Part shown: piece by piece, positions 1,625 to 22,289 of the stretch
How positions within the stretch are numbered: the stretch's first letter is position 1
Layout: each line of letters opens with the position of its first letter
Origin: Desulfovibrio sp. DV
GTDB taxonomy: Bacteria > Desulfobacterota > Desulfovibrionia > Desulfovibrionales > Desulfovibrionaceae
Assembly (NCBI RefSeq): GCF_001936595.1
Contig: NZ_MLBG01000028.1
Location: 1 to 41,455 of the forward strand
Length of the DNA stretch: 41,455 bases
Reading direction: 5' to 3'
The notes under the pieces: model-generated
Seen by the model: only the letters and a program-made list of their open reading frames with translations
What the model was told of the DNA's origin: nothing
Database searches by the model: none
Program-made: the position numbers and the translations under genes

Positions 1625-1646
1625 AACGCCGGCAAAGGAGTTCGCC

Positions 1647-2258: not shown

Positions 2259-2285
2259 CGAGAAGGAAAAGCATGCCTCCGGCGG

Positions 2286-2309
2286 CCGGGGGGGATGCAT
2301 CCCCCCCGG
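2286..2309. repeat. 24-bp perfect GC palindrome between convergent genes
   Basis: A run of seven G, ATGCAT and seven C is extended by CC/GG on each side, giving a perfectly self-complementary 24-bp palindrome. It sits 28 bp after the LysE stop, in the gap before the convergent kinase gene. It could act as a REP-like hairpin or transcription barrier. It lacks a T-run, so it is not a standard intrinsic terminator. The GGACCCC and GGGG tracts around it resemble the GGGCTTCGCCCCGAACCCC stretch at the right end of the window. Confidence 0.5.
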
Positions 2310-2458
2310 ACCCCCTGAAAGGGGACGCGGCAGTGGGGACCGGGTAAGGGACTGTGGCGTGGGCGGGGGGGGCCAAGACGGTTGGCGCGACAGCCCGGTT
2401 CGCTCGGGGAAGGCGGGATACCGCACTGGCCGGGGCTCGGGGCAGCGCTACGATTGTC

Positions 2459-5746: not shown

Positions 5747-5967
5747 GGACACCCTGCGGCGCTGGAGGCGTTGAAGGGTGGAGATGGGGGGCTGCTTTGT
5801 GTCTGCATGGCCATGAACATGGATTTCTGTTTCTTTCGCATTACAGGTGCACGCTGTTCGCTCTTGTCATGGCGTGAAGACTTTTCGTCTGTGCCAACCG
5901 CACTCTATGATAATCTGATGATGGCAGCAATGGGGAGAGGAGGTTTAAGGCGGGCGCGGCCGGCCGG

Positions 5968-6336
5968 TCAGATCGCTTTGTCTGCTCGCAAAACAAGTTC
6001 CAGCCAGCGAAAGAGTGCTTGCCCAAGTTTGTCGAGCAGCAAGGCAAGAAAAAAGAGCAGGCCCAGGAGAACAATGAGGGGCAGCCCGACGCAGGAGATG
6101 AAAATGGTATTGAGTACGATGTAGCGAGGCGGCAGGAGATATTCGTACACGCCCGGGTGCAGGCTGGCGAGGCTCATATCCGGGAGCCCTCCGTGCCGTA
6201 CAAGCACGTAGAGGGAGTAGCCGGCGCAAAGCACTGCTCCGAGCCCAAATGCGCCCAGGATGCAAACCCTCACGGCCAAAAGTATCGTCCCAAGGACGGC
6301 GCTGATGACACGAACCATTGGCGGCAACATACGCAA
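5968..6336 (-). CDS. Small membrane protein of unknown function
   Basis: A 122-residue predicted membrane protein. Two long hydrophobic stretches are visible, about residues 12-48 (VISAVLGTILLAVRVCILGAFGLGAVLCAG and on) and about 74-105 (IVLNTIFISCVGLPLIVLLGLLFFLALLL), with a basic and amphipathic C-terminus. No family is recognised. It lies upstream of and in the same direction as the hybrid kinase, but 215 bp away, so linkage is weak. The amino-acid pattern is clearly membrane-like, which supports coding, although no strong ribosome binding site is seen. Confidence 0.55.
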   Translation of the reverse strand: MRMLPPMVRVISAVLGTILLAVRVCILGAFGLGAVLCAGYSLYVLVRHGGLPDMSLASLHPGVYEYLLPPRYIVLNTIFISCVGLPLIVLLGLLFFLALLLDKLGQALFRWLELVLRADKAI

Positions 6337-6858
6337 GGAAGCCTCCGCTGACCAGAAGCGTGATTGGGATGGGCTGGAATCGGCGATCTGCCGCGTGGGC
6401 CGAGGTCCACGCTACACTGTCGGTCCTCTGGTCGGGCCCGGTCGGTGAAGGCCGAGGCGCACCATGTCGCAGTCCGCGTTGCGAAGCATTGCCAAGGACA
6501 GTCAGAAACCCCGCTCCACCGAAGCCGGGGGCGTTCGACATCCAGGTGGGGGGGCGCCAGCGGCCAACGCGTTCTGATTCTTTGAGGAGGATGGCTTGTG
6601 TCGGGCGATCGGACCGCCAAAGTGGGACAGGTGGTCAGCGACGCTCTGGCGCATGTCTTTGGCCATTGCTCCAATCGCCTGGATTCGGTTCTGTAGCACT
6701 GCCGCAATCTTCAGGAGTCTCAATGATGAGCGACCTGTTTCCATGCGGAGGCGGGCCGAACATTTTCGTTGCATTGTGGAGATGGGCTTGGCATATGGAG
6801 TAAACGGGCCAAAAACTTTTTCAGGCAAGCAGCTTCCAATACAAAGGAAGGTGTCGCG
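6337..6858. other. Intergenic stretch without a recognisable gene
   Basis: About 520 bp between the small membrane protein and the AT-rich secreted protein. Overlapping frames are open on both strands but none has family-like sequence or a good ribosome binding site. A helical-looking minus-strand peptide around 6600-6760 could be a gene remnant but cannot be assigned. GC content falls sharply after about 6800, where the next gene begins. Confidence 0.4.
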
Positions 6859-7521
6859 ATGAAAATGAAAACTGCCATTATTTTGTCGTGTTATGTATTG
6901 CTGAGTTATCCGCTGCGGGCAGATGGCAGCCCTGTTGTCTCAAACATATATATAGATCAAGCCGGATACTCAACGCACAATGTCGTGTATTCATTTTGGC
7001 AAGAGGATACATGGTACCAATCAGCGGTTATCTCATCATCATACAATTACCATGAAACGGCAAGTGGCTTGCTGTGGAGTTTAGAGGATAGCACATATGA
7101 ATTTTACATAGGGAACCTCAAGGGGAGAAATATTATATCTGCAACGCTTTATTTGAAGCCTGCTGGAGCCAGCTCTATAACAAAGCTTCAAACAGATGTC
7201 GTCTCTACGCTTACGCATGTTGAAAAAACGAAAGCTGTAACTGGAAACCCTGGTGTGGACAGGGTTGTTGGAACTGAGGTTCTCGCAAATATGCATTATG
7301 GTGATGTCGGCAATACTATTCCTGTTGATGTTACCTCCTCCATCAAGGCTGATCTCGCAAATGACCGAAATTGGGCGGCATTCAGCACTGTTCATGTTGA
7401 GGTTGATCAAACATCTTTCTATTGTCCATTCTATGGTGCGGAAGGATTCGTCAGCTACCTCGAAATCGTTCACACGATGCCTGCCGGCATTGCTCCGATG
7501 TCACTTTTGCTTTTGGATTGA
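6859..7521 (+). CDS. AT-rich secreted beta-rich protein, possible truncated PEP-CTERM protein
   Basis: A 220-residue exported protein of unknown function. ATG 6859 follows AAGGAAGG at good spacing and begins a signal peptide (MKMKTAIILSCYVLLSYPLRA). The body is beta-rich, with segments such as DVTSSIKADLANDRNWAAFS that resemble the carbohydrate-binding or DNRLRE-type jelly-roll domains of surface proteins. The last residues (MPAGIAPMSLLLLD) look like the beginning of a PEP-CTERM sorting motif and hydrophobic helix, but the frame stops there with no helix or basic tail. The gene is far more AT-rich than its neighbours and uses different codons, which suggests horizontal transfer. The family call is tentative; export is well supported. 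Confidence 0.6.
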   Translation: MKMKTAIILSCYVLLSYPLRADGSPVVSNIYIDQAGYSTHNVVYSFWQEDTWYQSAVISSSYNYHETASGLLWSLEDSTYEFYIGNLKGRNIISATLYLKPAGASSITKLQTDVVSTLTHVEKTKAVTGNPGVDRVVGTEVLANMHYGDVGNTIPVDVTSSIKADLANDRNWAAFSTVHVEVDQTSFYCPFYGAEGFVSYLEIVHTMPAGIAPMSLLLLD

Positions 7522-8282
7522 TTGTAGTGAAGAAAGGCCATGGATGGATTTTTTGAGGTGATTGGCTGTTGCATTTTTGAAGGTTGCGCGCTTGAGCTGT
7601 CCATTAAGAGCAATTGTAACGTTGTTGGACACAATGAGAACGCGGATTATGACTGATTGACGGGATTTGAAGAGCCTCCTGGGAGCGGATGCTGGACGCT
7701 TTCCAGCGGAGAGTTCTAGCGCAGTGCCACGTTGTCTTGTCAAATCCGCCGCGCCGGGGCAGTTCGCCTTCCTTGCAGACGGCAAAGTTGAAACGTCCGG
7801 GAACTTTTCGCCGTCATGGCGCTTGTTCCTCAAGATGAAGACCACCACCAGAACATAAACGCCCACGGCAAGGGCAACGGCCATGATCCATTCCATGGGG
7901 CTGGCCGGGAGCAGGCGGGGTCGGGCTTGTCGCTCTGCCTTGCTGCCGGGATCCGTTGCGCCTGCATGTCGCGTCCAGGTGGTCGGGCGGGGTGCAGTGC
8001 CCCAGGCGGCGGGGGCACAACGGGCAGCACAACCAGAACGCCAGCAATGGGCAGCACGGGCAAGAAGCGAACAGGACGGGCAGAAGCGTGCAGGCGTAAG
8101 CAGATTTGCTTGTCCTCGGCGACAGGGCCGCGCCTCGCCGGCATTGTCTTTTCAGTCGGGAGGGACTGGCGTATCGACACTGGAAGCGAGGCTTCGGTCG
8201 CAGGCTGTCTGGGAATACGTCGTGGAGCGGCGCGGGCGAGGTCGTCAACCGCACAAGTCGGTTTGGGGGTCAGGTACACGCG
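7522..8282. other. Long intergenic region with only weak small-ORF candidates
   Basis: Two weak candidates are present. A 38-codon frame at 7540-7656 on the plus strand (starting MDGFFEVIGCCIFEGCAL) follows AAAGG with very short spacing. A minus-strand frame ending at 7501 and starting at 7896 opens with a convincing membrane helix (MEWIMAVALAVGVYVLVVVF) followed by charged residues, but its C-terminal part runs into the tail of the secreted gene and looks non-coding. The membrane start could be the end of a frameshifted membrane protein. Neither is firm enough to call as a gene. Confidence 0.3.
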
Positions 8283-9395
8283 ATGTCCGAGGCATATAAA
8301 GGCAGATTGATCTCCGTTGACTGTATGCGGGGGCTGGTCATTGCCTGGATGATCCTGGCGAATAATCCTGGAGACTACCTGCATGTCTACCAGGAACTGA
8401 CGCATACGCCCTGGAACGGCTGGACCGCCACGGACTTCGTTTTCCCTTTGTTCCTCTTTATTGTCGGCGTATCCGTGGCCTTGTCCGTCAACCGCGAGAC
8501 GGTGCGGGCCGGCGGCGTCATCCATTTCTGGCGCAAGGTTTTCAGAAGATCTGCGATCCTTATTGCAATCGGTCTGTTGGAAAACGCCTATCCTTACTTT
8601 GATATGGCCAGTCTGCGCATTCCAGGCGTGTTGCAGCGCATTGCCCTGGTCTATCTCGCCGTGGTCTGGTTGCATGTTCGCTTGCAAAACAAGGGGATCG
8701 TCGCCGTGGTTGTGGCTGTTCTGGTTGGCTACTGGGCGCTTATGGCTTTTGTGCCCATTCCAGGCATCGGCTATCCAAGCATGGATTCCCATGCCAATCT
8801 TGAAGCTTGGCTGGATCAGGTCATGCTGCACAACCACATCTGGCAATACGACACGCAATGGGACCCTGAAGGCATTCTTTCCACCTTTCCCGCCATGACG
8901 CTGGGGCTGATCGGCGTATTGGTCGGCCGGTGGCTGCGTTCGGGGAAACCAGGGATGCTGCGGGCGTTTGTCCTGGGGCTTGGCATGGTTTTGACCGGTC
9001 TGTTGTGGCACGAGTGGTATCCGATCAATAGATCTATTTGCACCAGTTCGTTCGTGTTGTTCGTGGGCGGGTTTGGCGTCATGCTGCTTGTCGCCTGTCA
9101 TTGGCTCATTGATCGACGCGGCAAGACGGCCTGGGCCAAGCCGTTCGTGATCATGGGCGTCAATCCGTTGGCGATCTATGTCGTCGCCGAGTTTGTCTCG
9201 GCCACGCTGTATTGGATCAAAATTCCTGACGGGAGGCCCGGGGGCATACATCTGCAAGCGTATCTGTTCAAAGCACTTTTTGCCGGCTGGACATACAGCT
9301 ATCTGGCTTCCCTGTCCTGGTCCGCTCTCTTTTTGCTGGTGATGTTCCTGGGGGCGTGGGCGCTGTACGCGCGCCGCATCGTCGTCAAACTCTAA
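8283..9395 (+). CDS. DUF5009/NagX-like membrane acyltransferase (HGSNAT catalytic domain)
   Basis: A 370-residue polytopic membrane protein of the DUF5009 / heparan-alpha-glucosaminide N-acetyltransferase-like family. Relatives move acetyl groups from cytoplasmic acetyl-CoA to sugars across the membrane. The N-terminus is characteristic: RLISVDCMRGLVIAWMILAN, then TATDFVFPLFLFIVGVSVAL, with the DxxRG and FPLFLFxxG motifs. Around ten hydrophobic helices follow. The frame is open upstream to 8106, but the family start is at ATG 8283; the ribosome binding site (AGG about 8 bases upstream) is weak. It has no obvious metabolic partners here. A role in amino-sugar or cell-wall sugar acetylation is inferred from the family only. 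Confidence 0.85.
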   Translation: MSEAYKGRLISVDCMRGLVIAWMILANNPGDYLHVYQELTHTPWNGWTATDFVFPLFLFIVGVSVALSVNRETVRAGGVIHFWRKVFRRSAILIAIGLLENAYPYFDMASLRIPGVLQRIALVYLAVVWLHVRLQNKGIVAVVVAVLVGYWALMAFVPIPGIGYPSMDSHANLEAWLDQVMLHNHIWQYDTQWDPEGILSTFPAMTLGLIGVLVGRWLRSGKPGMLRAFVLGLGMVLTGLLWHEWYPINRSICTSSFVLFVGGFGVMLLVACHWLIDRRGKTAWAKPFVIMGVNPLAIYVVAEFVSATLYWIKIPDGRPGGIHLQAYLFKALFAGWTYSYLASLSWSALFLLVMFLGAWALYARRIVVKL

Positions 9396-9516
9396 CATCC
9401 CCGTGGGGGACAGCGGCATGTGCAGAGGTTTGCGGCGTCGGTCAGGCATGATCCGCAACAGGGGCGGACCCAGGCCCGAACCGACCAAGCGTCCGCCTGG
9501 AGCTGCGGCTGGGCCC

Positions 9517-9630
9517 GGCGTCGAAATAATTTCCACGCTCATGAAGGACGCAGTCGAGCACAGGGGCCTGAAAGAAGGCTCCAAGGGCAAAGCCATGGTC
9601 AAGGCTTCCAGCGTCATGGTCGTCACCGAC
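9517..9630 (+). pseudogene. Mop/TOBE molybdopterin-binding domain remnant
   Basis: Within an otherwise non-descript frame (9403-9762), residues GVEIISTLMKDAVEHRGLKE and the following SKGKAMVKASSVMVV match the second half of a Mop (molbindin) domain, the molybdate/tungstate-binding fold found in ModE, ModC and small Mop proteins. The expected first half is absent: the upstream residues are Arg/Pro-rich and not family-like. The residues after VVTD are also unrelated. I read this as a decayed fragment rather than a working gene. Confidence 0.55.
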
Positions 9631-9762
9631 GAGATCTCTCGCCTTGCCCCGCCATTTGAAAGGTCTCGCAGTATTGAGCCGCGGGGCCTTTTCCTGTGCG
9701 TCGCTCCTGTGGCTGGGCAGATCACTGCCCTCAATTTTGAGTCGAAGGCCGTGGGCTGGTGA

Positions 9763-10110
9763 CGCAATCCGGCGCCGCGACAGTATGCAAACCGGCAGCT
9801 TCATTTTGAGCCGCCGGATGGGCCGGCTGGACATGCTCCCGTGCGCCATGCGGGTGGCTATGGCAGGGGGGCAGTCAGGCGGGCGGGTATCTGCCGGGGA
9901 CATTCCCGTCCATCGCAAACGGATTCCCGCCGGTGAGGGGAGGGCGGTCAAAGGCCGGCAGTCCCCAGCAAGTCCCCGGCACGGGGAAGCCGCCCGTGCC
10001 CGCCGCCGGACTGGGCGTGCCCATGGGCTTGCTGGCCGCCGACAAGCAACTCGACGAGCAAAGGCGATGGTCGAGACTCTTGCGGCCTTGCCTGCCTCTG
10101 CCGGGACACG
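9763..10110. other. GC-rich intergenic region, nothing recognised
   Basis: About 350 bp between the Mop remnant and the repressor remnant. Frames are open on both strands, as expected at this GC content, but none shows family-like sequence, a ribosome binding site or a convincing start. Confidence 0.4.
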
Positions 10111-10630
10111 TTACGTATCTTTATCGTATATTGCCTCATCTCCTCGGGCGTTGTCGAAGCGGTCATCCATTTTCTGATTCGCCGCAGCATGGCCGGACAA
10201 TGGGCCGGAACTGGCCGGCTTTCCTCTGACGATTGCCTCGATACCCTCGGCAATTCGCGAACTTGGCATGCCGAGTTCGGTTTGGAGTCGCTTGTAGGCG
10301 TACATTTCCCGTTGGGTGGGAGAGAGGGTTGCGGAGATTTCTTCGGCGGGGAGAGTCGTCCCGGTCTCGCCCCGGGCATCGAGCGACATATCGCCCTCGC
10401 CGGTCAGGAGCCAATTGGCGTTTACCCGAAAATCTCGAACCCAATTCGACATTATATCGGCTGCGGGCTGACTGTTGCCGGCGAGATAGGCTGATATCGT
10501 TGCGCTGCTGACGCACCCAGAGGCGGCGAGCTGCTTCTGCTCAAGCCCAAAATTCTTGACAAATTTTTTCAATCTCGCCCCAAAAAGCCGCGCGTTGCTC
10601 AGGCGTTGAAGTCGTTTTCGTTTTTTTCAT
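10111..10630 (-). pseudogene. CI/XRE-like phage repressor, apparently frameshifted
   Basis: A helix-turn-helix regulator of the lambdoid CI type without the S24 peptidase domain. The downstream frame (start codon TTG at 10572) carries LEQKQLAASGCVSSATISAYLAG, a clear HTH, then NWLLTGEGDMSLD, the signature following the HTH in such repressors. The natural N-terminus is in another frame: ATG 10630 begins MKKTKTTSTPEQRAAFWGEI and continues to QEF, then runs into a stop. Removing one A from the AAAA run at 10549-10552 (plus strand) joins them as EIEKICQEF-GLEQKQLAAS. Either a real mutation has inactivated the gene, a start at TTG 10572 gives a shortened protein, or the base is a sequencing error. 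Two operator-like repeats lie directly upstream. Confidence 0.65.
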
Positions 10631-10805: not shown

Positions 10806-11113
10806 ATCTGGATGAGAATTCGATCATCCAGGGTTCCGTCCCGCCGCCGATTTTTCCCCGTCGTCGGGCCCAGACATCTGGCCGCCCGTATTTCAGTCTT
10901 TTCTCTCTTGCCCAAATGACGCCTTGATTGGCAGCCGTTGCCTCTTTCGTGAGGTGTGCCCCTGGGAGTGCGACAGCCAAGGGGCCAGAACAATGCTTTG
11001 GGAACCGTCCCAGGCCTGGTGGAGTCCCTTTGCCTGCGTGCAGGGGCCGTCGTGGAGAAGCCAGCGACGCTTGGCCGTAATCCTATCACCCCCCCCTTTT
11101 GAGGAGTTACGCC
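10806..11113. other. Upstream region of the chemosensory operon, possible Mu-type remnant
   Basis: No confident gene. On the minus strand a frame at 10768-10980 contains ATAANQGVIWAREK and RGKIGGG, loosely like the MuA-type DNA-binding domain (pattern GVxxxA...R...G+GG). This would fit phage remnants next to the repressor but is weak. The 3' part leads into the GAGGAG ribosome binding site of the receptor gene; no confident -35/-10 pair was found. Confidence 0.3.
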
Positions 11114-13018
11114 GTGGCCCTAATCAAGAAGAACACAGCAGCGCTTGCCCCCCCCGCCAATAAAACCGTCATCTCCCGAGAAGCGGAGGCATTGCGCAAA
11201 AAAGCCCGGACGCTCGCCAAGCAACAGCAGGCCGCGGAACGGATCGCTGCGGCCACGGCGGAGTTGTCTTCCGGTATAAACGAAGCGGCCTCCGCTGCAG
11301 AAGAATTGAAACGCTCCACCGAACAGATCGCTTCCGGAGCCGAGGAAGCCTCAGGGGCGGCCCAGGAGTCGCTCACCGGGTTTCAGCAGATCGGGGACAG
11401 GATCACCCGCCAACTGGAGAACGCCGCGGCCATCCAGGAGAAAAGCGAAATAAGCCAGGGCCTGATCGCCACAACAATTTCGGAAGTGACAAATATTGTG
11501 CTCAACGTGGCGGTCACCGCCCAGCGGCAGTCGGCGTCTGTGGAGATGGTTGCTGAGTTGGAAAAGCAGGCGGCCAATATTGGCGATATCGTCAAGGCCG
11601 TGGCCCGTATTGCCGACCAGACGAATCTGTTGGCGCTCAACGCAGCCATCGAAGCGGCCCGCGCCGGCAAGCACGGCAAGGGGTTTGCGGTCGTGGCCGA
11701 TGAAGTGCGAACCCTGGCTGAAACTTCGGAAAAAAGCGCCAAGCAGATTCAGGAACTGGTGGGGCAAATCCAGCAGGATGTGAAGAACATTGCCGACGGA
11801 ATCAACACCTCCGCCAAATCTGTCGAGCAAGAGGTGGAAAAAAGCGAACTGATCAGCACCCAGCTCGAACAGGTCCGCGCGGACATGGTCGAAATCGTCC
11901 GGGGAGCCCGGGAGATTGCGGCCGGAGCCCAGCAGTCGGCCACCGCCGCCCAGCAGGCCCTGCGCGGGTCCAAGGATATCGCCGCCGCTGCCGAGGAACA
12001 GTCCGCCGCTGCCGAAGAATCCGCCCAAACCGTGGACGAACAGACCCAGGCTTTGTCTGTGTGCGAGCAGATGGCGCAGACCCTGTCGGAACAGGCCGAG
12101 GATTTAAAGACCTCGACTGATGTGGCCAAGAGCGCCGAGGAGGTGGCCGCCGCTGCCGAGCAACTCTCCTCTGCCGTGCAGGAAATCAGCCGTTCCGGGG
12201 CGCAGATCATGACCGCCATCGAGCAGATCCGCAAGGGTGCCGAGGTGCAGTCCGCCGGGAGCGAGGAATCCGCCGCCGCCAGCGCCCAGATCGAGAAAGG
12301 GCTGGAGGTCGCGCAGCAACGGGCGACGGCCAGTGCCGAAAAAGTGGCTGCCATCAAACAACTTTTGGCCGACAACAAGAATGCCGTCGATGCCCTTATC
12401 GCCGGGATTTCCGCTTCAGCCGAGGCGTCTCGCGGCAGCATCAAGCAGATCAAGGCCCTGGAATTGGTCTCCCGGCGTATCGACAAGATCGTGGACGCCA
12501 TCACCACCGTGTCGATCCAGACCAACATGCTTGCGGTCAACGGCGCCATCGAAGCGGCTCGGGCCGGAGAATTCGGCAAGGGTTTCGTGGTGGTCGCCAC
12601 CGACATCCGCAATCTGGCCCACGATTCTTCCGAGAATGCCGACCGGATAAAAGATCTGGTCAAAGCCGTGCAAGACCAGATCGGCGTCGTGGCCCGCGAC
12701 CTGGACGAGATCGTGGCGACCGGCCTATCCGAGGTGGAAAAAGCCAAAGCCACCACAGCCAACCTGCTGACCATCGAGACCTCCATTGCCGTCGTGGAAA
12801 CCGGCACCCAGGAAATCCTGGAGGCGTCCATCGAAATGACCACCGTTATTGGCCAGGTCAAAAAAGGGGTGGAACAGATTGCCGCTGCGGCCCAGGAAGC
12901 TGACAAGGCCGCCACCGAAGCGGCCTCCGCCGCCAAGCAGCAGGCGCAGGGGGCGGAAGATCTGGCCGCCGCCATCGAAGAAGTCGCTTCGCTCGCCGAC
13001 GAACTGCAAAGTGCGTAA
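11114..13018 (+). CDS. Soluble double-signalling-tip chemoreceptor (DosM-like MCP)
   Basis: A 634-residue methyl-accepting chemotaxis protein with no membrane helix, signal peptide or recognisable sensor domain. It is almost entirely Ala/Glu/Gln-rich coiled coil. It holds two hairpin tips: [20 protein letters not shown] at residues 166-185, followed by [18 protein letters not shown], and [18 protein letters not shown] at 468-485, followed by [17 protein letters not shown]. The spacing is symmetrical: about 175 residues before tip 1, about 300 between tips and about 157 after tip 2. This fits two hairpins with equal arms joined base to base. The known analogue is Vibrio cholerae DosM, which stabilises cytoplasmic sandwich arrays. 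GTG 11114 is chosen because GAGGAG lies at 11101-11106; the frame also opens at TTG 11099. First gene of the operon. Confidence 0.92.
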
Positions 13019-13045: not shown

Positions 13046-14632
13046 ATGACGACAGAAATACCGGAAAAATGCGGGGACGCGGCCAGCCCCGCAAACGATA
13101 CCCTGGACGAATTTGCTTCCAACACCCGCCAATTCGTCACCTTCGTCACTGGAAATGAAATCTTTGCCGTGGACATGGCCCCGGTGCAGGAAATCATCCG
13201 CCTGCCCGAGGTGGTGCGGGTGCCGCTGGCCCCGGCCACCCTCGACGGGTTGGCGAATCTGCGTGGCAGGGTGCTGCCGATTATTTCCCTGCGTCGGGTC
13301 TTTGGTTTCGCCGAGCAGGAGCACGACGACGCCACCCGTGCCGTGGTGGTGGATGTCGGCCAGCCCCTCGGCTTCGTGGTGGACCAGGTGGCCAGCGTCG
13401 TTGGGGTGGAGCCGGGCCAGATCGAGGATGTGGGCGCTTTGCGCAGCACGGTGGACACCGAGCTGCTCTCCGGGCTCATCAAGGATGTGGGCGGCCACGC
13501 CATGATTATGGTGCTGGATTTCGAGAAGCTCATCCAACGTCAATTTGCGGAAATCGCCGCCATCGCCAAAACCCATGACACTGCAACTGGGTTGGCCGCC
13601 AGTGTGGAAGGTGAAGAAGACGAGGTGAGCGATGAACTGCAACTGGTGAGCTTTGAGGTCGCCGGCCAGGAATACGCCCTGGCCATCGAAGATGTGCAGG
13701 AGATCGTCCAGATACCGGAGACGATCATTCATGTGCCGCATTCCCAGTCCCACGTGCTCGGCGTCATGACCCTTAGAAACCGCCTGTTGCCCCTGGTCGA
13801 CCTGCGCCGCATGTTCGAACTGACGGATCGGCCACTGGACGAGAAAAGCCGGATCATCGTGCTGGCTCTGGGCAGTGCCTCAGTCGGCGTGGTGGTGGAC
13901 GGCGTGAGTGAAGTGCTGCGGGTGGCCAAGGCCGAAGTGGACGCCATGCCCGCCATTTTTGCCCGCGAAAAAGAACTCGCCGATATTACGGAAATCTGTC
14001 GATTAAACGAGGGCAAACGCCTGGTGTCCATCATCACGGCCCGAAACCTGTTTGGCCATAGCGCCGTCAAGGAGGCCCTAAACGCCGTGAACGACATCAA
14101 CCAGGAAGCCGGACACGAGACGGCCGCGATGGAAGAAGACCTGGATGATGACGAGCAGGTGGTGGTTTTCCTTCTGGACAAAGAGGAATTCGGGGTTCCC
14201 ATAGCCAGTGTGCAGGAGATTGTGCGCGTGCCCGAGTCGCTCATCCATGTGCCCAAGGCACCCCTGTCCGTTGAAGGCGTTATCAACCTGCGTGGCAGCG
14301 TGCTCCCGGTGATCGATTTGCGTCTGCGCCTTGGGCTGCAACGCGGGGAACGCTGCGACCGCCAACGCATTGTCGTGTTCCTGATTGCCGGTGTGCGCAC
14401 AGGGTTCATTGTCGACCAGGTGGCCGAGGTGCTCAAACTCCCCAAGGCGGCCATCGAACCGGCGCCAGTCCTGTCCAGCGCGCAAGCCAAACTCCTGTCG
14501 CGCATGGCCAATCTGGAAAAGCAAAAACGCATGGTGCAACTCATTGAGCCGGCGCATCTGGTCGAAGGTCAGGAGCTGGCGGCAATCGTCGCGGTCACGG
14601 AGCAAGGCAGTGATCAAGCTGCTCATTGTTGA
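13046..14632 (+). CDS. cheW: Triple-domain CheW coupling protein
   Basis: A 528-residue chemotaxis coupling protein made of three full CheW domains in tandem: about residues 25-165 (QFVTFVTGNEIFAVDM, LANLRGRVLPIISLRR), about 192-340 (LQLVSFEVAGQEYALAIEDV, MTLRNRLLPLVDLRRMF) and about 362-515 (VVVFLLDKEEFGVPIASV, INLRGSVLPVIDLRLRL). Each has the NLRG/TLRN turn and the FxVD(Q/G)V strand. A normal CheW is about 160 residues. Three linked copies could occupy several positions in the CheA/CheW rings and stiffen a baseplate. ATG 13046 follows GGGAG. The gene starts 27 bp after the receptor stop and overlaps cheB by 23 bp. Confidence 0.92.
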   Translation: MTTEIPEKCGDAASPANDTLDEFASNTRQFVTFVTGNEIFAVDMAPVQEIIRLPEVVRVPLAPATLDGLANLRGRVLPIISLRRVFGFAEQEHDDATRAVVVDVGQPLGFVVDQVASVVGVEPGQIEDVGALRSTVDTELLSGLIKDVGGHAMIMVLDFEKLIQRQFAEIAAIAKTHDTATGLAASVEGEEDEVSDELQLVSFEVAGQEYALAIEDVQEIVQIPETIIHVPHSQSHVLGVMTLRNRLLPLVDLRRMFELTDRPLDEKSRIIVLALGSASVGVVVDGVSEVLRVAKAEVDAMPAIFAREKELADITEICRLNEGKRLVSIITARNLFGHSAVKEALNAVNDINQEAGHETAAMEEDLDDDEQVVVFLLDKEEFGVPIASVQEIVRVPESLIHVPKAPLSVEGVINLRGSVLPVIDLRLRLGLQRGERCDRQRIVVFLIAGVRTGFIVDQVAEVLKLPKAAIEPAPVLSSAQAKLLSRMANLEKQKRMVQLIEPAHLVEGQELAAIVAVTEQGSDQAAHC

Positions 14633-15680
14633 TGACTCGGCGCTGATGCGCCGCCAATTGACCAGTCTTTTCGAGGCCGAGGGCGACTTCGAGATACGCC
14701 AGTCGAAAAACGGCCAGGAGGCGGTGGACGCAAACCGCGAGTTCCAGCCGGATGTGGTGACGCTCGATATCAATATGCCGGAGATGGATGGCCTGACCGC
14801 CCTTTCGCTCATCATGGCGGAGCGGCCGGTGGCCGTGGTGATGGTTTCTTCACTCACCGAACAAGGGGCGTTGGCCACCTTCGAGGCCTTAAATCTCGGG
14901 GCGGTCGATTTCATCGGCAAACCGGGCGGCACCATCTCGCTGTCCATCGGTGCGATACAAACCGAACTGGTGGCCAAGGTCCGCAGCGCCGCCCGGGCGC
15001 ACTTGAAAGGAAAAGGGTCGGGCCGCGGGGTATCGGTTCCGGACACGAAAGGCGGGCGGGCGCTCAAGCCGGCCCGCCCCGTGGCCCTGCGGCGTGGTCT
15101 GGCGAACGAGGGCCTGGTCCTCATCGGCGTGTCCACCGGCGGGCCGCGCACCCTGGAGGACATCCTGCCGCTACTTCCCGTCGACTTTCCCTGGCCGGTA
15201 CTGGTGGCGCAGCACATGCCGGCGGGGTTCACCAAATCCTTTGCCGACCGTCTGGACCAGATTTGCGCCCTCCAGGTGGTGGAAGCGGACCGGCCCGTGC
15301 CCGTCCAAGCCGGCACAGTGTATATCGGCAAAGGCGGGGCCGACATGGTGGTCGCCAGGCGGGCGGGGCAACTCACCGTGCTCCCCAAGCCGGAAACGCC
15401 GCAATTCCTTTGGCACCCTTCGGTGGAATTGCTCGGTCGCTCGGTGCTCGAGCACTGCGACCCGGCCCGGGTGACCGCGGTCATGTTGACCGGCATGGGC
15501 TATGATGGTGCGGACGTGTTTACCGAAATCAAAAAGCGTGGCGGGCGTACCATCGCTGAATCGGAGCAATCCGCCGTGGTGTTCGGCATGCCGGCTGAAC
15601 TCATCAATCGCGGCGGCGCAAACAAGGTGCTGGATTCTAATAAAGTAGCGTCCCAACTCATGAGTTGGGCTTGTTTATAA
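14610..15680 (+). CDS. cheB: CheB receptor methylesterase with receiver domain
   Basis: A 356-residue protein-glutamate methylesterase/deamidase. The N-terminal receiver (KLLIVDDSALMRRQL, phospho-acceptor in VVTLDINMPEMDG, then KPGG) is linked to a C-terminal CheB_methylest domain. The catalytic triad is visible as the serine in GVSTGGPRTLE, the histidine in VAQHMPAGFT and the aspartate in LTGMGYDGA. It would remove methyl groups from the tandem receptor under CheA control. The GTG start at 14610 lies inside the end of cheW (23-bp overlap, different frame) and follows GGAGCAAGG, indicating translational coupling. A 170-bp gap follows, the largest inside the operon, so a second promoter before the HEAT gene is possible. 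Confidence 0.92.
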   Translation: MIKLLIVDDSALMRRQLTSLFEAEGDFEIRQSKNGQEAVDANREFQPDVVTLDINMPEMDGLTALSLIMAERPVAVVMVSSLTEQGALATFEALNLGAVDFIGKPGGTISLSIGAIQTELVAKVRSAARAHLKGKGSGRGVSVPDTKGGRALKPARPVALRRGLANEGLVLIGVSTGGPRTLEDILPLLPVDFPWPVLVAQHMPAGFTKSFADRLDQICALQVVEADRPVPVQAGTVYIGKGGADMVVARRAGQLTVLPKPETPQFLWHPSVELLGRSVLEHCDPARVTAVMLTGMGYDGADVFTEIKKRGGRTIAESEQSAVVFGMPAELINRGGANKVLDSNKVASQLMSWACL

Positions 15681-15850: not shown

Positions 15851-16474
15851 ATGCCTCTCATCATAAAGAAAAATAGCGAGCCGTTTTTCCGGGACGAACG
15901 CAAACGCAATAGAGACTGTTGCAGTTTACTGGAAGGATTGGCTGACCCCGATCCAACCACCCGCCGTTGGGCCGCGAGAGATTGCATCGATTGCCTGGGA
16001 GCTGCTGCCGCCTTGGTCGGGCGCTTGAAAGTCGAGCAGGACATTTCAGTGCGGGAAGTTATCTTCACCACCTTGACCCGCATGGGTGATCCACTCGCCG
16101 TCGCCGGCCTGGTGGCTTTCCTGCGTAGCGAAGACCCGGCTTTACGCAACGAGGCCATCGAGGCCATGAAACAACTCCCCGATGAAATGGCACCCATTTT
16201 ACGGAATTTGCTGGCCGATGCCGATCCGGATGTGCGTATTTTTGCGGTCAATATCCTCGAGTCTCTGCGCCACCCACAGGTGGAGGCCTGGTTGCTCGCC
16301 GTAATTGATAATGACCTGCATATCAATGTCTGCTCCACAGCAGTGGATTTGCTTTGCGAGGTTGGCACGGAAGCAGCGTTGGAGCCACTTGCAAGGCTCA
16401 AGGCCCGTTTCGCCGACGAACCGTACATTCAGTTCGCCACGGCCCTGGCGTTGGCCCGTATCGGCCAGGCGTGA
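15851..16474 (+). CDS. HEAT-repeat protein of the chemosensory operon
   Basis: A 207-residue soluble alpha-helical protein with about five HEAT/PBS-lyase-type repeats, for example LADPDPTTRRWAARDCIDCL, LRSEDPALRNEAIEAMKQL and LADADPDVRIFAVNILESL. Such repeats form a solenoid used as a protein-protein interface. ATG 15851 follows GAGGAAAGAG. The gene lies between cheB and cheR, ending 7 bp before cheR, so it is probably an array-associated scaffold or adaptor. That role is inferred from position only. It has no PBS-lyase catalytic features and no link to phycobilisomes is implied. Confidence 0.82.
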   Translation: MPLIIKKNSEPFFRDERKRNRDCCSLLEGLADPDPTTRRWAARDCIDCLGAAAALVGRLKVEQDISVREVIFTTLTRMGDPLAVAGLVAFLRSEDPALRNEAIEAMKQLPDEMAPILRNLLADADPDVRIFAVNILESLRHPQVEAWLLAVIDNDLHINVCSTAVDLLCEVGTEAALEPLARLKARFADEPYIQFATALALARIGQA

Positions 16475-16481: not shown

Positions 16482-17324
16482 ATGACAGAACCCACGATCA
16501 AGGCGGAAGAATTTCAAAAGTTCCGGGAGTTTTTCTATCGCAAGACCGGTATCCGTTACGAGACGTCCAATCGCTATTTTGTGGACAAGCGCATTCTGGA
16601 ACGCATCGTGGCCACCAAGAGCGGTGACTTTCGAAGTTATTTTACCCTGCTTCGTTTTCAAGCTTCAGGCGAGGAACTCCAGCAACTCACCAATCGGATG
16701 ACGGTGAACGAAACATATTTCTTGCGTGAAGAATTCCAATTTCAGTGCCTTGTCAATTCCTTGCTTCCGGAAATAATCATACGTAAAACAGACAATACAC
16801 CTATCAGAATATGGAGTATTCCATCGTCTTCAGGCGAAGAACCGTATTCCATCGCCATGTATTTGCTCGAACGATGGCCAGGGATTAACGACTGGGACGT
16901 GGAAATTATCTCATCCGACATCGACACCGGTATTTTGCGCAAGGCCCGTATCGGGCGCTATTCGAGCCGGGCCGTGCAGTATGTCCCAGCCTTGTGGATG
17001 AGGAAGTACTTCAAACCCGTAGAAGACGAATACCAGATTTGCGACGACTTGCGGGAGGCTGTGGAATTTACCCAGGTGAATCTGGCGGCAACAGCCGACA
17101 CGCGGTCCTACCGGGATTTCGATGTTATTTTTTGCCGCAACCTGCTGATATATTTCGATGATTTGTCGAGAAAAGCGGCCGCGGAAACATTTTACGACGC
17201 CTTGAAGCCAGGCGGTTATATCTGCCTTGGTCATTCAGAGTCTATGAGTCGCATATCATCACTGTATCAGGTGCGTAACTTCGTTGAGGCCATCTTGTAT
17301 CAAAAACCCCTGGAGGCCAGGTGA
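16482..17324 (+). CDS. cheR: CheR receptor methyltransferase
   Basis: A 280-residue SAM-dependent protein-glutamate methyltransferase for chemoreceptors. The N-terminal CheR domain (FREFFYRKTGIRYE, then MTVNETYFLREEFQF) is followed by the catalytic Rossmann domain: IWSIPSSSGEEPYSIAM, EIISSDIDTGILRKARIG, FDVIFCRNLLIYFDD and LKPGGYICLGHSES. The segment IWSIPSSSGEE replaces the usual (W)SAGCSTGEE but keeps the GEEPYS core. The frame is open upstream to 16305; ATG 16482 is the family start and lies 7 bp after the HEAT gene. The stop overlaps the GTG of the next cheY. No CheR-tethering pentapeptide is seen at the C-terminus of the receptor. Confidence 0.92.
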   Translation: MTEPTIKAEEFQKFREFFYRKTGIRYETSNRYFVDKRILERIVATKSGDFRSYFTLLRFQASGEELQQLTNRMTVNETYFLREEFQFQCLVNSLLPEIIIRKTDNTPIRIWSIPSSSGEEPYSIAMYLLERWPGINDWDVEIISSDIDTGILRKARIGRYSSRAVQYVPALWMRKYFKPVEDEYQICDDLREAVEFTQVNLAATADTRSYRDFDVIFCRNLLIYFDDLSRKAAAETFYDALKPGGYICLGHSESMSRISSLYQVRNFVEAILYQKPLEAR

Positions 17325-17692
17325 AACGCATTCTGATTGTCGATGATGCTGCCACTGTGCGTCTATATCACCGAAACATCCTCGAATCTGCGGGATATAC
17401 AGTGGAAGAGGCCATTAATGGAATTGAGGCACTTGAGAAGTCGCTTCTTAAGCCTTTCGATTTGTATCTCGTGGACGTGAACATGCCCAAACTCGATGGC
17501 TATGCCTTTCTCCAAAGGCTGCGCGGCAAGGACATGTCGCAGGCACCGGCCATCATGGTGTCCACCGAAGCAGCGCCCCATGACCAGACGGCTGCCTACC
17601 GGGCCGGGGCAAATTGTTATCTCGTCAAACCCGTCAGACCGGAGCAACTCCTCGTGCATGTCCAGATTCTTCTTGGGGAGATCTGTTCATGA
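17321..17692 (+). CDS. cheY: CheY-like single-domain response regulator (first)
   Basis: A 123-residue stand-alone receiver: acidic pair in RILIVDDAATVR, phospho-acceptor Asp in LYLVDVNMPKLDGYAF, the switch Ser/Thr in IMVSTE and the conserved Lys in YLVKPV. It has no output domain. It would receive phosphate from CheA. GTG 17321 overlaps the cheR TGA, and its own TGA overlaps the cheA ATG, so all three are translationally coupled. Since no flagellar gene is present here, the target may be something other than the flagellar motor. Confidence 0.88.
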   Translation: MKRILIVDDAATVRLYHRNILESAGYTVEEAINGIEALEKSLLKPFDLYLVDVNMPKLDGYAFLQRLRGKDMSQAPAIMVSTEAAPHDQTAAYRAGANCYLVKPVRPEQLLVHVQILLGEICS

Positions 17693-20445
17693 ATCCCTTG
17701 CTCGAACAATTCCTATCCGAATCGCGGGAGAGTCTGCAAAGTATTGGCGAAAAGCTCATGCAATTGGAGCAAGGGGCCTGCGATTCCGGCCTGATAAACG
17801 AAGTATTCCGCTTGGTGCATACATTAAAGGGCAATAGCGGTCTGTTTGAATTTCCTGAAATGACCCGCGCTCTTCATGCCGGTGAAGATGTGATGGACGC
17901 CGTGAGAAACGGCACTATCCCATACTCGAGGGCCTTGGCGGACAACCTCCTGGAAGTCGCGGATTTCGTCGGTTTTCTGTGTGACGAGATAGAGTCCAAG
18001 GGAAGCATAGCTGCCTCGCACTCTGCAGATTCAGCCCGTCTAGCCGCAGCCTTGCGGGGACTCCTGCAAAGCCATGCCGACGCGGAAGTTGTTTGCACCG
18101 CCATGGACCATCGCCCGGCTGATAATGCTGCATCCTCCGAATCAGCGGCAACGCCGGGAGACGCGCCCGCGACACTGGGCAATGTGCCGGAAGTCATCCG
18201 CATGGACGCGTACAGACGCGCCAAAGGCGGCGAGTCCTTGGCCTGGATCACATTCAGCCCACAGGAGGAATGCTTTTTCCAGGGCGACGACCCCTTCTTT
18301 ACGGTCCGACAGTCGCCCGAGCCGCTCTGGGGCCGGATTGGCCATCGCGAGCCCTGGCCGCCTCTGGCCGAACTCAATGCCTACCGCTGCATCCTGGATT
18401 TTGAGCTCCTCACCGTAGCCCAACCCGAGGAACTGGCCGAACACTTCCGCTACGTGCCGGATCAGGTGACCATCGTTGCGGTTGATCCCCTCTGGCTTGT
18501 TCTTCCCCAGGGCGACCCCAACGGCGGGCCGGTGTATGAAGATTTCGTGGCTGATGCCCTGGGGTTTCTGGAGGCGGGCGACCCCACCGCCTTGCGTCAG
18601 GCCGCCCAAACCATGCTGGAACTCAGCAATCCGGTGTTGTGGCTGTCCTCAGCCTTGCGCTGGCTGCTGCTCCTCATGGAAAGCGAGCCGGGCAATCGGG
18701 CGGTCTTGCGGCGGCTGATCGAGTCACTGCGGCAGTTGACGCCCCCTGATTGGACCTCGTTGGAGGCGCCCGAGGAAACGCTATCGGCTGCCGGCGAATT
18801 GTCTGAAAAGGGCCTGCAGCAACCGGGGGACACCCCCACGCGGCACCGCGAACTCTCGCAGCAAGAAGCTGCGACACTGGCAGCCCTCTTTGAGGCCCAA
18901 TGGGAAATCCTCAGCCTTGACGATGAGCCCTCCTGGCAGGCTGGACGGCTCAAGGCGGTGGCGGGAGTCCTGGTTCAGTGTTGCAACATCGACGGCGATT
19001 GGCCTGCACGGGGAGCAATCGAGACGGCCCTTGCCCAGGCCCTGTCCGCCGGGGAGGCCTTGCCGTTGCTGTCGTGGCTTGAGGCCAGACAGTCGCGGCA
19101 ACTGATCAACACCATTGCGCGGCAAATTCCCGCTCAGGCCAATGCGACCGCAGCTGTTTTGAGCGAAAGCAAATCCGCACAGCCTGAACAACCAGGGGTA
19201 TCGGCGTCACCCAATGGCTCCGGGCCCATCAATGGATTATCCGGATTTGGCCGCCGGGCCGAGGACTCCAGTACAGGCCCCATCAAGGTCGATCAGGTGA
19301 AGATCGACCGCTTGATGAACTTGATCGGTGAAATGGTTGTTTCCAAAAATGCCCTGCCTTACCTGGCCCAGCGCGCGGAAAACCAATTTGGCGTGCGTGA
19401 ATTGGCTCGTGAGATCAAGGCGCAATACACCGTCATCAACCGAATCGTAGAGGAGATGCAGGACGCCATCATGCAGGTGCGCATGCGACCTGTGTCCTTT
19501 GTTTTCCAGCGTTTTCCGCGCCTGGTGCGCGATATTTCGCACAAGCTTGGCAAAGATGTACAGTTGGCTCTTGAAGGGGAAGACACGGAAGCCGACAAGA
19601 ACATCATCGAATGCTTGGCCGACCCGCTCATCCATATTGTTCGCAACAGTCTTGACCACGGCCTGGAAACTCCGGACGAACGACGAGCTTGCGGCAAGGC
19701 TGCCACAGGAACGCTCACCATCCGAGCCACCCAGGAAGCCGACCAAGTCCTGATTGACATCATCGACGACGGCAAGGGCATCGACCCGGCAATCATCAAG
19801 CGAAAAGCCTACGAAAAAGGCGTCATCGACGAGACCACACTGGAACGCATCACGGACCGGGAGGCGATAAACCTCGTCTTTGCCGCCGGCTTTTCCACCG
19901 CTGAAGCGGTGTCCGACCTTTCAGGCCGAGGGGTGGGGATGGATGTGGTGCGCGCTGCCGTCGAAAAGGTCAACGGGACCATCCTGCTGGAAAGCCAGGT
20001 GGGCAAAGGCACGCACATTCGCATCGCCTTGCCGCTTTCCATGGCTGTGGCCAAGGTCATGATTGTGGAATCCGACCGGCAGGTATTCGGCGTGCCCATG
20101 GAGTACGTCGTTGAAACCGTGCGTGTTCCACGTGACGCCATCCGTGCCATCAAGCAGAACCAAGCTGTTGTGCTGCGGGGCCAAATCGTGCCGCTTAAGG
20201 CATTGAACACACTGCTTGAACTCCCTGCCGAGCCGCAGGCCAATGCCGACGATGAGTTGGCGGTACTCGTTGCCCGGGTAGGCAGCGAGGTTGTGGGGCT
20301 GGTGGTGGACAACTTCCACGAGACCGTTGACGTCATACAAAAACCCCTGGGCGGCGTCCTTTCCGGCCTAAACGCCTATTCGGGGTCTGCCCTCATGGGT
20401 GACGGTTCGGTGCTCATGGTGCTCAACTTAAAGGAAATCCTGTGA
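17689..20445 (+). CDS. cheA: CheA histidine kinase with long middle region
   Basis: A 918-residue chemotaxis kinase, longer than the usual 650-750. Order: P1/Hpt with phospho-acceptor His44 in LVHTLKGNSG; a P2-like domain at about 184-275 (AWITFSPQEECFFQGDDPFF, then YRCILDFELLTV and FRYVPDQVTIVAV); a helical region of unknown type at about 285-505; and a Ser/Pro-rich linker. These are followed by the dimerisation helices from about 533 (VDQVKIDRLMNLIGEMVV), the HATPase with HIVRNSLDHGLE, DDGKGID and GRGVGMDVV (about 600-770), and a C-terminal CheW-like domain. ATG 17689 overlaps the cheY stop. The helical insertion is the feature to compare with the LID of Vibrio CheA, which binds ParP; no similarity is claimed. 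Confidence 0.92.
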   Translation: MNPLLEQFLSESRESLQSIGEKLMQLEQGACDSGLINEVFRLVHTLKGNSGLFEFPEMTRALHAGEDVMDAVRNGTIPYSRALADNLLEVADFVGFLCDEIESKGSIAASHSADSARLAAALRGLLQSHADAEVVCTAMDHRPADNAASSESAATPGDAPATLGNVPEVIRMDAYRRAKGGESLAWITFSPQEECFFQGDDPFFTVRQSPEPLWGRIGHREPWPPLAELNAYRCILDFELLTVAQPEELAEHFRYVPDQVTIVAVDPLWLVLPQGDPNGGPVYEDFVADALGFLEAGDPTALRQAAQTMLELSNPVLWLSSALRWLLLLMESEPGNRAVLRRLIESLRQLTPPDWTSLEAPEETLSAAGELSEKGLQQPGDTPTRHRELSQQEAATLAALFEAQWEILSLDDEPSWQAGRLKAVAGVLVQCCNIDGDWPARGAIETALAQALSAGEALPLLSWLEARQSRQLINTIARQIPAQANATAAVLSESKSAQPEQPGVSASPNGSGPINGLSGFGRRAEDSSTGPIKVDQVKIDRLMNLIGEMVVSKNALPYLAQRAENQFGVRELAREIKAQYTVINRIVEEMQDAIMQVRMRPVSFVFQRFPRLVRDISHKLGKDVQLALEGEDTEADKNIIECLADPLIHIVRNSLDHGLETPDERRACGKAATGTLTIRATQEADQVLIDIIDDGKGIDPAIIKRKAYEKGVIDETTLERITDREAINLVFAAGFSTAEAVSDLSGRGVGMDVVRAAVEKVNGTILLESQVGKGTHIRIALPLSMAVAKVMIVESDRQVFGVPMEYVVETVRVPRDAIRAIKQNQAVVLRGQIVPLKALNTLLELPAEPQANADDELAVLVARVGSEVVGLVVDNFHETVDVIQKPLGGVLSGLNAYSGSALMGDGSVLMVLNLKEIL

Positions 20446-20684
20446 TGCCTATCCACTTCGATAAAACGCAGGCAATTTTTCAGGATGTCGCGGGAGTAGA
20501 GGAAGCTGAAGGCCTGCTTGACTGGCTGCAGAACAATCCGAAAGCGACGATTGATCTTGCGGCCTGCACCCACCTGCACGCTGCCAATTTGCAAGTGCTT
20601 ATGGCGCACAAAACACCTGTGGCAGCCTGGCCGAATGATTCTGATCTTCGGGCATGGCTCGAATCAACATTAACAACAGCCTAG
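20445..20684 (+). CDS. 79-aa STAS-like small protein of the chemosensory operon
   Basis: A small soluble protein without a firm family. The centre, WLQNNPKATIDLAACTHLHA followed by ANLQVLMAHKTPV, has the beta-alpha pattern of a STAS/MlaB-like fold (strand, DLxxCxxLHxAxxQxL helix). I recall similar short proteins between chemotaxis genes in other proteobacteria, but this was not checked. GTG 20442 or ATG 20445 could start it; ATG has the better spacing from AAGGAA at 20431. It overlaps the cheA stop and ends 9 bp before the second cheY. A role as adaptor of CheA or ParA is a guess. Confidence 0.7.
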   Translation: MPIHFDKTQAIFQDVAGVEEAEGLLDWLQNNPKATIDLAACTHLHAANLQVLMAHKTPVAAWPNDSDLRAWLESTLTTA

Positions 20685-20693
20685 AGGCTCTTC

Positions 20694-21068
20694 ATGTCCA
20701 AAACAATTTTTATCGTTGATGACTCGGCTACCATGCTCATGAGCGTCAAGTTGTCCCTTGTATCGGCAAACTTCACGGTTGAGACGGCCAGCGATGGCGT
20801 GCAAGCCCTTTCCAGGCTCAAAAGTGGTCTCAAACCTGACCTCATCATAACGGACATCAATATGCCCCACATGGGCGGGATGGAGCTCATCAAGAATCTG
20901 CGAGCCATGCCGAGCTTTCGGTTCACGCCGATCCTCACCCTCACAACAGAAAGTCTCCCCGAAAAACGCAACGAGGCCAAGAAACTCGGCGCTACCGGTT
21001 GGATCGTCAAACCCGTCACCGGTGCAGACCTGGTCAAAGTGATCAAGCAACTTCTGCCGGGGGCGTGA
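20694..21068 (+). CDS. cheY: CheY-like single-domain response regulator (second)
   Basis: A 124-residue stand-alone receiver: IFIVDDSATMLMSV with the acidic pair, phospho-acceptor in LIITDINMPHMGGMEL, the threonine switch in ILTLTTES and Lys in WIVKPVTGADL. It is distinct from the first CheY. Two CheY proteins with one CheA suggest one output regulator and one phosphate sink, a division known in Sinorhizobium and Rhodobacter. Which is which cannot be told from sequence. It follows the 79-aa gene by 9 bp and precedes parA by 7 bp. Confidence 0.9.
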   Translation: MSKTIFIVDDSATMLMSVKLSLVSANFTVETASDGVQALSRLKSGLKPDLIITDINMPHMGGMELIKNLRAMPSFRFTPILTLTTESLPEKRNEAKKLGATGWIVKPVTGADLVKVIKQLLPGA

Positions 21069-21075
21069 GGGATAA

Positions 21076-21840
21076 ATGCCAACAACGCTCGTCGTCTCCA
21101 ACCGTAAAGGTGGTGCCGGCAAAACCACCGTATCGGTGAACCTCGCTGCTGCGTTGGCCGCATTAGGGCGGCGTGTTTTGCTTGTGGACCTCGATTCGCA
21201 AAGCCATTGCGCCATGGGGGTGGGAATAAAGGTCGGTAAAACGACCCCCACCTCCCATGATCTCTTTCGCAGCCAGGAAGCACGGCTGGCAGCCGCCATA
21301 CTGCCGACGGCATTCCCCAACCTTGCCCTGGTCCCGGCTGACCCCTTGTTTGAACACGGCAGCGGCCGGCGTGACGAGGGCTTGTTGGCCCAGGCCCTTG
21401 CCGAAGAGGAAATTACGACAGCTTTCGATGTGGTGATCCTGGACACGCCGCCTTCACTGGATATTTTGCTGCTCAATGCGCTCATGGCTGCCGACTGGGT
21501 GCTGGTTCCGTATGTGCCGCATCCGCTTTCCTTTGAAGGGGTACGGCAACTGACACGGGTACTGTTCAAGATTATTTCCGGCCCCAACCAAGGACTGAAG
21601 CTCGCAGGATTCTTGCCCATGATGGCCGCCGAGCACATCCGCCAGCACCGTGCGGTCAACAGTGATGTGGCGCGGCAATTTGGCGATCTGCGTATACTGC
21701 CCGGAATACGCAATGACATCCGATTGGCAGAGTCGTTCGGAGCGGGAAAACCTATCCATTACTATGCCCCACAAAGCCGGGCAGCAGAGGATTTTGCGAT
21801 TCTTGCCGCAGTCATTACTGAAAAGGTATGGAACAGTTAA
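21076..21840 (+). CDS. ParA/Soj-type ATPase of the chemosensory operon
   Basis: A 254-residue ParA-family ATPase. The deviant Walker A motif KGGAGKTT lies at residues 11-18, with the signature lysine; LLVDLDSQSHC is the A' motif and FDVVILDTPPSLDIL the Walker B. No HTH precedes it, so this is the short orphan type. No parB or parS is beside it. Orphan ParA proteins in chemosensory operons (ParC in Vibrio, PpfA in Rhodobacter sphaeroides) place and segregate arrays; PpfA acts on cytoplasmic clusters. As this operon's receptor is soluble, partitioning of a cytoplasmic array is the likely role. ATG 21076 follows GAGGGAT, 7 bp after the second cheY. Confidence 0.9.
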   Translation: MPTTLVVSNRKGGAGKTTVSVNLAAALAALGRRVLLVDLDSQSHCAMGVGIKVGKTTPTSHDLFRSQEARLAAAILPTAFPNLALVPADPLFEHGSGRRDEGLLAQALAEEEITTAFDVVILDTPPSLDILLLNALMAADWVLVPYVPHPLSFEGVRQLTRVLFKIISGPNQGLKLAGFLPMMAAEHIRQHRAVNSDVARQFGDLRILPGIRNDIRLAESFGAGKPIHYYAPQSRAAEDFAILAAVITEKVWNS

Positions 21841-22022
21841 AACCAGGGGGCTCCCCTCAGGGTAGATATCGCGTCTACTTCGGCCAGGATGGCGACCGCG
21901 TGATTTTGCTGCTTTGCGGTGGTGACAAATTTGGCCAGACTCAAGACATTGAAGAGGTCCGCACGCTGTGGGCCGAATACGGGTGGAGGCGTCATGACGA
22001 TACTTCGCGATTACCAGCATGA
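21828..22022 (+). CDS. N-terminally truncated RelE/HigB-type (Gp49-like) toxin
   Basis: A 64-residue frame whose sequence GRYRVYFGQDGDRVILLLCG and then GDKFGQTQDIEEV matches the C-terminal half of Gp49-like/HigB addiction-module killer proteins (consensus YRVYF...LLLxGGDKxxQxxDIxxA). The usual first 45 or so residues, with the basic residues that contact mRNA on the ribosome, are missing. The ATG at 21828 lies inside the 3' end of parA, overlapping by 13 bp, so the fragment is attached to the operon. It is probably inactive as an mRNA interferase. Confidence 0.6.
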   Translation: MEQLKPGGSPQGRYRVYFGQDGDRVILLLCGGDKFGQTQDIEEVRTLWAEYGWRRHDDTSRLPA

Positions 22023-22233: not shown

Positions 22234-22289
22234 GGCTTTATCTTTATGGCGGATCCTCTCATCCAGGCGCGCGGCATGCTTTCTCTTGG

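Follow-up and report, generated by a model that had tools for sequence, protein, structure and literature searches.

Introduction

Chemosensory systems of the F9 class possess two unusual architectures that are unique to this class, a receptor with double signalling domains (DosM) and a triple CheW protein (CheW3), and sensory domains are absent from 98% of DosM homologs (PMC9321776). The available text of the same paper counts 64 full and 8 partial F9 clusters among 2781 species and describes their distribution as sporadic, with many transfers. In Vibrio cholerae, the triple CheW is VC1402 and DosM is VC1403, an extended rod that carries a signalling domain at either end and, as seen by tomography, goes with two baseplates; DosM sits in every other trimer, and the available text of PMC7534058 gives the second receptor as not yet determined. 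Cluster I of V. cholerae comprises cheY1, cheA1, cheY2, cheR1, cheB1, and a putative cheW (PMC11940527, available text). In R. sphaeroides, the ParA-like protein PpfA positions the cytoplasmic receptor cluster (PMC3964821, available text).

Here, we compare these systems with a locus from Desulfovibrio sp. DV, contained in a stretch of 41,455 nucleotides that is referred to as the window. The initial annotation of this DNA proposed a soluble, sensorless chemoreceptor with two MCP signalling tips at positions 11114-13018, likened it to DosM, and considered it the only receptor encoded in an operon of a sulfate reducer.

Results

The placement of the receptor gene at 11114-13018 was confirmed, as the reading frame is open across 11099-13018 and the start at 11114 is sensible because the GTG there follows GAGGAG. 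Pfam assigned two stretches of the 634-aa protein to MCPsignal (PF00015; E 3.9e-64) and found no further family at E <= 0.01, so that neither the two tips nor the absence of a recognised sensor domain had been misjudged. The tips are centred on N176 and N476, and they match separately in an MCP search of the own genome (E 1.4e-35 for tip 1 and 3.9e-28 for tip 2), far beyond chance. The claim that a membrane helix is lacking also stands, the best 19-residue Kyte-Doolittle mean of the protein being 1.46; 48 of the 49 distinct single-tip receptors of the same genome reach at least 1.93. End to end, the protein is 45-76% identical to 38 homologs picked from the double-tip ORFs of other F9 loci, with which it forms a 39-row alignment.

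The operon runs in the order dosM-cheW3-cheB-HEAT-cheR-cheY-cheA, followed by a receiver and a ParA-type ATPase (Table 1). CheW3 consists of three concatenated domains, and cheB, cheR, cheY, and cheA are all present. Read backwards from the second receiver, the operon equals the V. cholerae cluster I list as given in the available text of PMC11940527, the HEAT gene excepted. Since DosM and a triple CheW are encoded in one operon, the cluster is, by its sequence, an F9 chemosensory cluster and its receptor a DosM, and the family is already known. With a complete F9 gene set and a triple CheW in the operon, the comparison with DosM was more than an analogy. The small ORF that follows cheA matched no significant Pfam family and shows at most a weak likeness to STAS (E 0.033, which does not reach the curated cut-off).

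Table 1. Coordinates of the chemosensory genes in the window and of features within the double-tip receptor
Feature	Positions	Strand	Description
dosM-like gene	11114..13018	+	634 aa, soluble double-tip chemoreceptor
Tip 1, residues 166-196 round N176	11609..11701	+	canonical MCP tip sequence
Break, residues 334-336 (S-T-D)	12113..12121	+	between two predicted helices
Tip 2, residues 466-496 round N476	12509..12601	+	tip-2-specific signature
cheW3	13046..14632	+	three tandem CheW domains, 528 aa
cheB	14610..15680	+	receiver and methylesterase; GTG start overlaps cheW3 end
HEAT-repeat protein	15851..16474	+	207 aa; flanked by cheB and cheR, the commonest arrangement in the F9 loci examined
cheR	16482..17324	+	
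cheY-type receiver	17321..17692	+	
cheA	17689..20445	+	918 aa; Hpt, dimerisation, ATPase, CheW-like
Small ORF	20445..20684	+	79 aa, overlaps cheA stop
Second receiver-domain gene after cheA	20694..21068	+	124 aa, PF00072 E 6.9e-25
ParA-type ATPase	21076..21840	+	254 aa

Related loci were collected by scanning genome contigs with a CheW3 alignment, and the best 80 of 581 confirmed stretches were compared, a sample that is biased towards the window's kind and in which no Vibrio locus occurs. Among these 80, the double-tip ORF adjoins cheW3 in 70 loci; both cheB and cheR are present in 72, and in 68 of those a HEAT gene separates the two. The HEAT gene was not found by blastp in L082 and L085 (Bacillota) or in L087 and L089 (Deferribacterota). 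A literature search for the HEAT protein of F9 clusters yielded archaeal work only. ORF lengths in the relatives are rough because starts were assigned mechanically, and L018 and L074 have their tip at the extreme end of the ORF, as if the frame were cut or shifted. Beyond these comparisons, L014 and L015, from two genomes of the window's own taxonomic order, have an F9 cluster followed by a further cheW-like gene, a receiver, and cheA, and L057, from one Burkholderiales MAG, carries two F9-type clusters back to back.

When the survey was extended to 84 loci (the 80 together with 4 from unnamed relatives), a ParA-like ORF was found on the same strand, at most 4.5 kb after cheA, in 27, although some loci end too early to tell. 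Between cheA and parA, these 27 loci have a tip ORF in 13 cases and a receiver in 17. The nearest relative among the best 80 of 581, L017, has the order cheA, receiver, single-tip receptor, parA, and its counterparts downstream of cheA are 77% (receiver) and 72% (ParA-type ATPase) identical to those of the window. Another locus has a 260-residue tipless ORF between receiver and parA (L020:17938-18720), which is perhaps a decayed or tipless companion.

The receptor had been described as the only one of its operon, and this holds, since no MCP tips other than its own two occur on the 41-kb contig. Such an arrangement is nevertheless unusual. Loci were comparable in this respect when they had cheA and at least 3.1 kb beyond it, and a single-tip ORF follows cheA in 45 of 57 such loci from the best 80 of 581, with a hydropathy maximum above 1.6 in 37 of the 45. 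Where L017-type relatives have a single-tip receptor, the gap between receiver and parA in the window amounts to 7 bases; given this gap and a contig that has no further tip, the receptor is neatly absent from between the two genes. The genome as a whole has 8 CheA dimerisation-domain matches, 24 CheW matches, and 55 MCP matches. Searching it with the L017 companion gave 52 matches that were low in identity or confined to a short stretch about the tip, and none of them was singled out as F9-type (best match E 6.3e-15, 28% over 233 residues). When 53 candidate companions were compared with the genome's own receptors by blastp, the top scores came from L086 2509-4665, the receptor of a neighbouring che cluster caught by the distance rule. 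Only one of the 49 distinct single-tip receptors is clearly soluble (L103; 397 aa, hydropathy maximum 0.97), and it is a candidate partner receptor of DosM.

The spacing of the two tip asparagines, N176 and N476, is exactly 300 residues. The same value was found in 71 of the 74 double-tip ORFs of the 84 loci (best 80 of 581 plus 4), and a spacing this exact is what a fixed-length strut would need. The exceptions are L022, in which masked bases interrupt the gene (265), and the Deferribacterota DosM homologs L087:7733-9973 and L089:3628-5883 (402 each). The latter two have a zinc-binding CZB domain (PF13682) between the tips (E 4.2e-14 and 5.5e-11, respectively), which would make them struts with a built-in sensor.

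We hold it highly probable that the protein is the DosM of a complete F9 system acquired by a sulfate reducer and that it forms a paired rod holding two baseplates. Two tips, solubility, tip spacing, operon, and homology were observed for the window protein itself. The structure model bears on the form that the protein may take. An AlphaFold2 monomer, based on 39 aligned sequences, reached a mean pLDDT of 90.3 and a pTM of 0.65 and consists of two long helices, 17-333 and 337-633, both of which are unbroken through the tips according to DSSP, with pLDDT down to 82 there. The helix break lies about midway between the hairpin turns, which we presume to be near 186 and 486 by an offset from the tip asparagine taken from Tsr, and T335 and D336 at the break are nearly invariant in the 39 rows. 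The best VIA-align match, with Z 14.2 over model residues 110-589, is to a bundle-shaped toxin; two Tsr constructs likewise span both halves (residues 41-611 and 39-612; Z 13.5 and 13.4). The soluble receptor hairpin 2ch7 aligns with model residues 331-634 (304 aligned, rmsd 4.0, Z 13.2) and was found by Foldseek at rank 4 (E 3.4e-4). These structural matches are weak, because unrelated helical bundles also reach Z near 13, and kinship with bundle-shaped toxins was set aside, the matches being taken as shape similarity.

Rows that span both halves suggest that the hairpins lie side by side in the monomer model. A single chain might thus fold at 334-336 into a pseudo-dimer with both tips in the same baseplate, as the midway break and the VIA-align rows, in which the toxin and the Tsr constructs align as if the hairpins were adjacent, would allow. 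Yet a monomer prediction may fold back for want of a partner chain, and tomography of V. cholerae is described as showing an elongated rod whose two ends each bear a signalling domain (PMC7534058, available text). The model itself neither proves nor excludes either form, being compatible with an end-to-end rod and with a folded-back bundle alike, and we regard folding into a single baseplate as unlikely.

The dimensions can be compared with those of known arrays. At 0.1485 nm per residue, 300 helical residues span 44.6 nm. Taking the arm of E. coli Tar fragments to be ~132 residues, we arrive at ~39 nm end to end for these fragments. Their baseplates lie 31 nm apart (PMC3964821, available text), which gives an offset of ~8 nm, or ~4 nm per end. 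With this Tar-derived offset, a baseplate distance of ~36 nm is expected for DosM, assuming that the V. cholerae protein shares the spacing of 300, and the distance measured in V. cholerae is 35 nm (PMC3964821, available text). A folded-back form with two opposed layers could result in a similar baseplate distance. A point against the rod is that the N-terminal arm exceeds by ~15-19 residues the length at which it would meet the C-terminus midway. Arm lengths, spacing, and midpoint break fit the rod and the fold-back both and were therefore not counted as deciding.

The two tips belong to different classes. In 73 proteins (72 from the loci and the window protein, L022 and L048 having been dropped), mean identity is 0.89 among tips 1 and 0.84 among tips 2, and only 0.51 between tip 1 and tip 2, also inside one protein. 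The nearest neighbour was of the opposite class for 0/73 tips 1 and 0/73 tips 2. As the tips differ and never interchange in these proteins, the strut appears to be polar. Invariant residues are present in both tips among the 39 aligned sequences; those of tip 2 include G477, E480, R483, G490, and F491. Among the differences fixed in at least 80% are those at -4, -1, and +1 relative to the asparagine, positions that we take, by Tsr numbering, to fall in the trimer-contact stretch. CheW3 domains are position-specific as well, with the nearest neighbour at the same position for 213 of 216 domains in 72 proteins.

The 49 single tips of the own genome are closer to tip 1 (mean identity 0.66) than to tip 2 (0.46), as might be expected if the kinase were controlled by tip 1 only and tip 2 were a structural relic. 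However, the identity among tips 2 is maintained across phyla and five of their residues are invariant, and we consider a relic tip improbable. Old divergence of a duplicated pair would alone be enough to explain two tip classes, while the strong conservation of both argues for two different jobs. It is even harder to credit a stand-alone chemoreceptor that senses by itself, its duplicated domain incidental and without a bridging role: methylation would be possible with cheR and cheB in the operon, but the protein has no Pfam sensor domain, it is linked to CheW3 in 70 of the best 80 of 581 loci, and its tip spacing is nearly invariant.

The cluster is rare among relatives of its host. The receptor was matched at E <= 1e-30 in 0/13 genomes of the same genus and in 7 of 59 genomes including its own, near full length in four (own included), with at most 21 candidates scored per genome. 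CheW3 was matched at E <= 1e-60 in 2 of 119 family genomes, one of them its own. In a CheW3 tree of 78 rows, the window falls in a group of 7 (support 100/99) together with Polaromonas, a Methylococcales MAG, two Acidobacteriaceae MAGs, Polynucleobacter, and an identical beta-proteobacterial row. A Desulfobulbaceae MAG branches just outside this group, and the four rows of the own order are far away; several other rows are long-branched, and their positions carry a tool warning. Given the lack of matches in 13 genus-mates and the proteobacterial and acidobacterial kin, the cluster looks acquired, and its sequence relationships point to horizontal transfer as the probable route into the window lineage.

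All 14 genus genomes (own included) have matches to the flanks 1-10600 and 20460-34000, in pieces that lie at different places, and among the matches listed no joined empty insertion site was seen in genus-mates. A clean empty site was accordingly rejected, the flank region being a mosaic of pieces at scattered places. For the receiver-parA part (20460-21840), the genus matches listed are only short and weak. Two further signalling genes lie in the same mosaic region as the operon, a large SBP-PAS-histidine kinase-receiver hybrid (window 2459-5752, - strand) and a 7TMR-DISM histidine kinase (27094-29406, + strand).

CheW3 matches were also found on 13 plasmid records (H1-H13; Azospirillum 7, Methylosinus 2, four others), 12 of which cover at least 80% of the query; plasmids are a possible vehicle for F9 transfer. 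With respect to the host, dsrA matches over the curated cut-off are consistent with its designation as a sulfate reducer. They lie on G000 contigs 22 and 31 (630.8 and 629.1 bits), perhaps as two dsrAB copies.

The genome encodes a further soluble MCP-like protein with two tips, 605 aa long and very unlike DosM (L001:3765-5582, - strand, G000 contig 29), whose gene directly adjoins cheA, cheW, and cheR. Its tips are ~269 apart, tip 2 has K and H for the usual E and R, and one stretch reaches a hydropathy of 1.92. Homologs occur in 34 of 59 genomes searched, including 14 of 14 of the genus (own included), and both tips are among the best-kept parts in 12 genus sequences. This protein is not a DosM, and it is possibly the more unusual of the genome's two double-tip proteins.

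Discussion

The rod and the two-baseplate role are carried over to the window protein from V. cholerae. Two DosM copies would pair into a four-helix rod, in each chain of which the N-terminal arm (~17-186) may run outward to tip 1, the 300-residue stretch lead inward past the middle and on to tip 2, and the C-terminal arm (~486-634) return to the middle, so that the two short arms roughly tile the long stretch. Each tip would be built into the CheA/CheW3 lattice of its own baseplate, with the rod keeping the two baseplates at a fixed distance. Positioning of the cluster within the cell may fall to the operon's ParA-type ATPase, by analogy with PpfA of R. sphaeroides. As DosM has no sensor, input would have to come from other receptors of the lattice or through CheR, CheB, or the HEAT protein.

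It is possible, if speculative, that a polar DosM strut with non-interchangeable ends leads to chemically different baseplates in the sandwich, or to end-specific trimer partners, and that the position-specific CheW3 domains read the difference. In the window lineage, the co-encoded receptor would have been lost, another receptor (e.g., L103) would signal, and the ParA-type ATPase would place the sandwich.

The locus gives a sulfate reducer a complete cytoplasmic F9 system, and it makes several questions of the F9 literature testable, namely the trimer partner of DosM, the polarity of the strut, the roles of HEAT and ParA, and whether the 35-nm sandwich owes its spacing to a strut of fixed 300-residue length. 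The spacing of 300, polar tips, HEAT, ParA, and a lost companion are not stated in the available text of PMC9321776, PMC7534058, PMC11940527, and PMC3964821, and an earlier mention is possible in the original DosM paper or the founding F9 classification.

Among known systems, the T. maritima soluble receptor hairpin 2ch7 roughly equals the second half of the window protein in length, although it has one tip only. The R. sphaeroides cytoplasmic cluster (TlpT, TlpC, PpfA) shares soluble receptors, a two-baseplate sandwich, and a ParA-type gene adjoining a receptor gene, whereas a double-tip receptor is not named for R. sphaeroides in the available text of PMC3964821. F9 clusters of other bacteria have DosM, CheW3, cheB, cheR, cheY, and cheA in common with the window cluster, which the 13 searched genus-mates of the window genome lack. 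The closest likeness is to V. cholerae cluster I. VC1403, likened here by description, has the same two tandem signalling domains and likewise neither sensor nor membrane helix, and while no receptor follows cheA in the window, both clusters share the triple CheW, the order cheW-cheB-cheR-cheY-cheA, and a further receiver beyond cheA.
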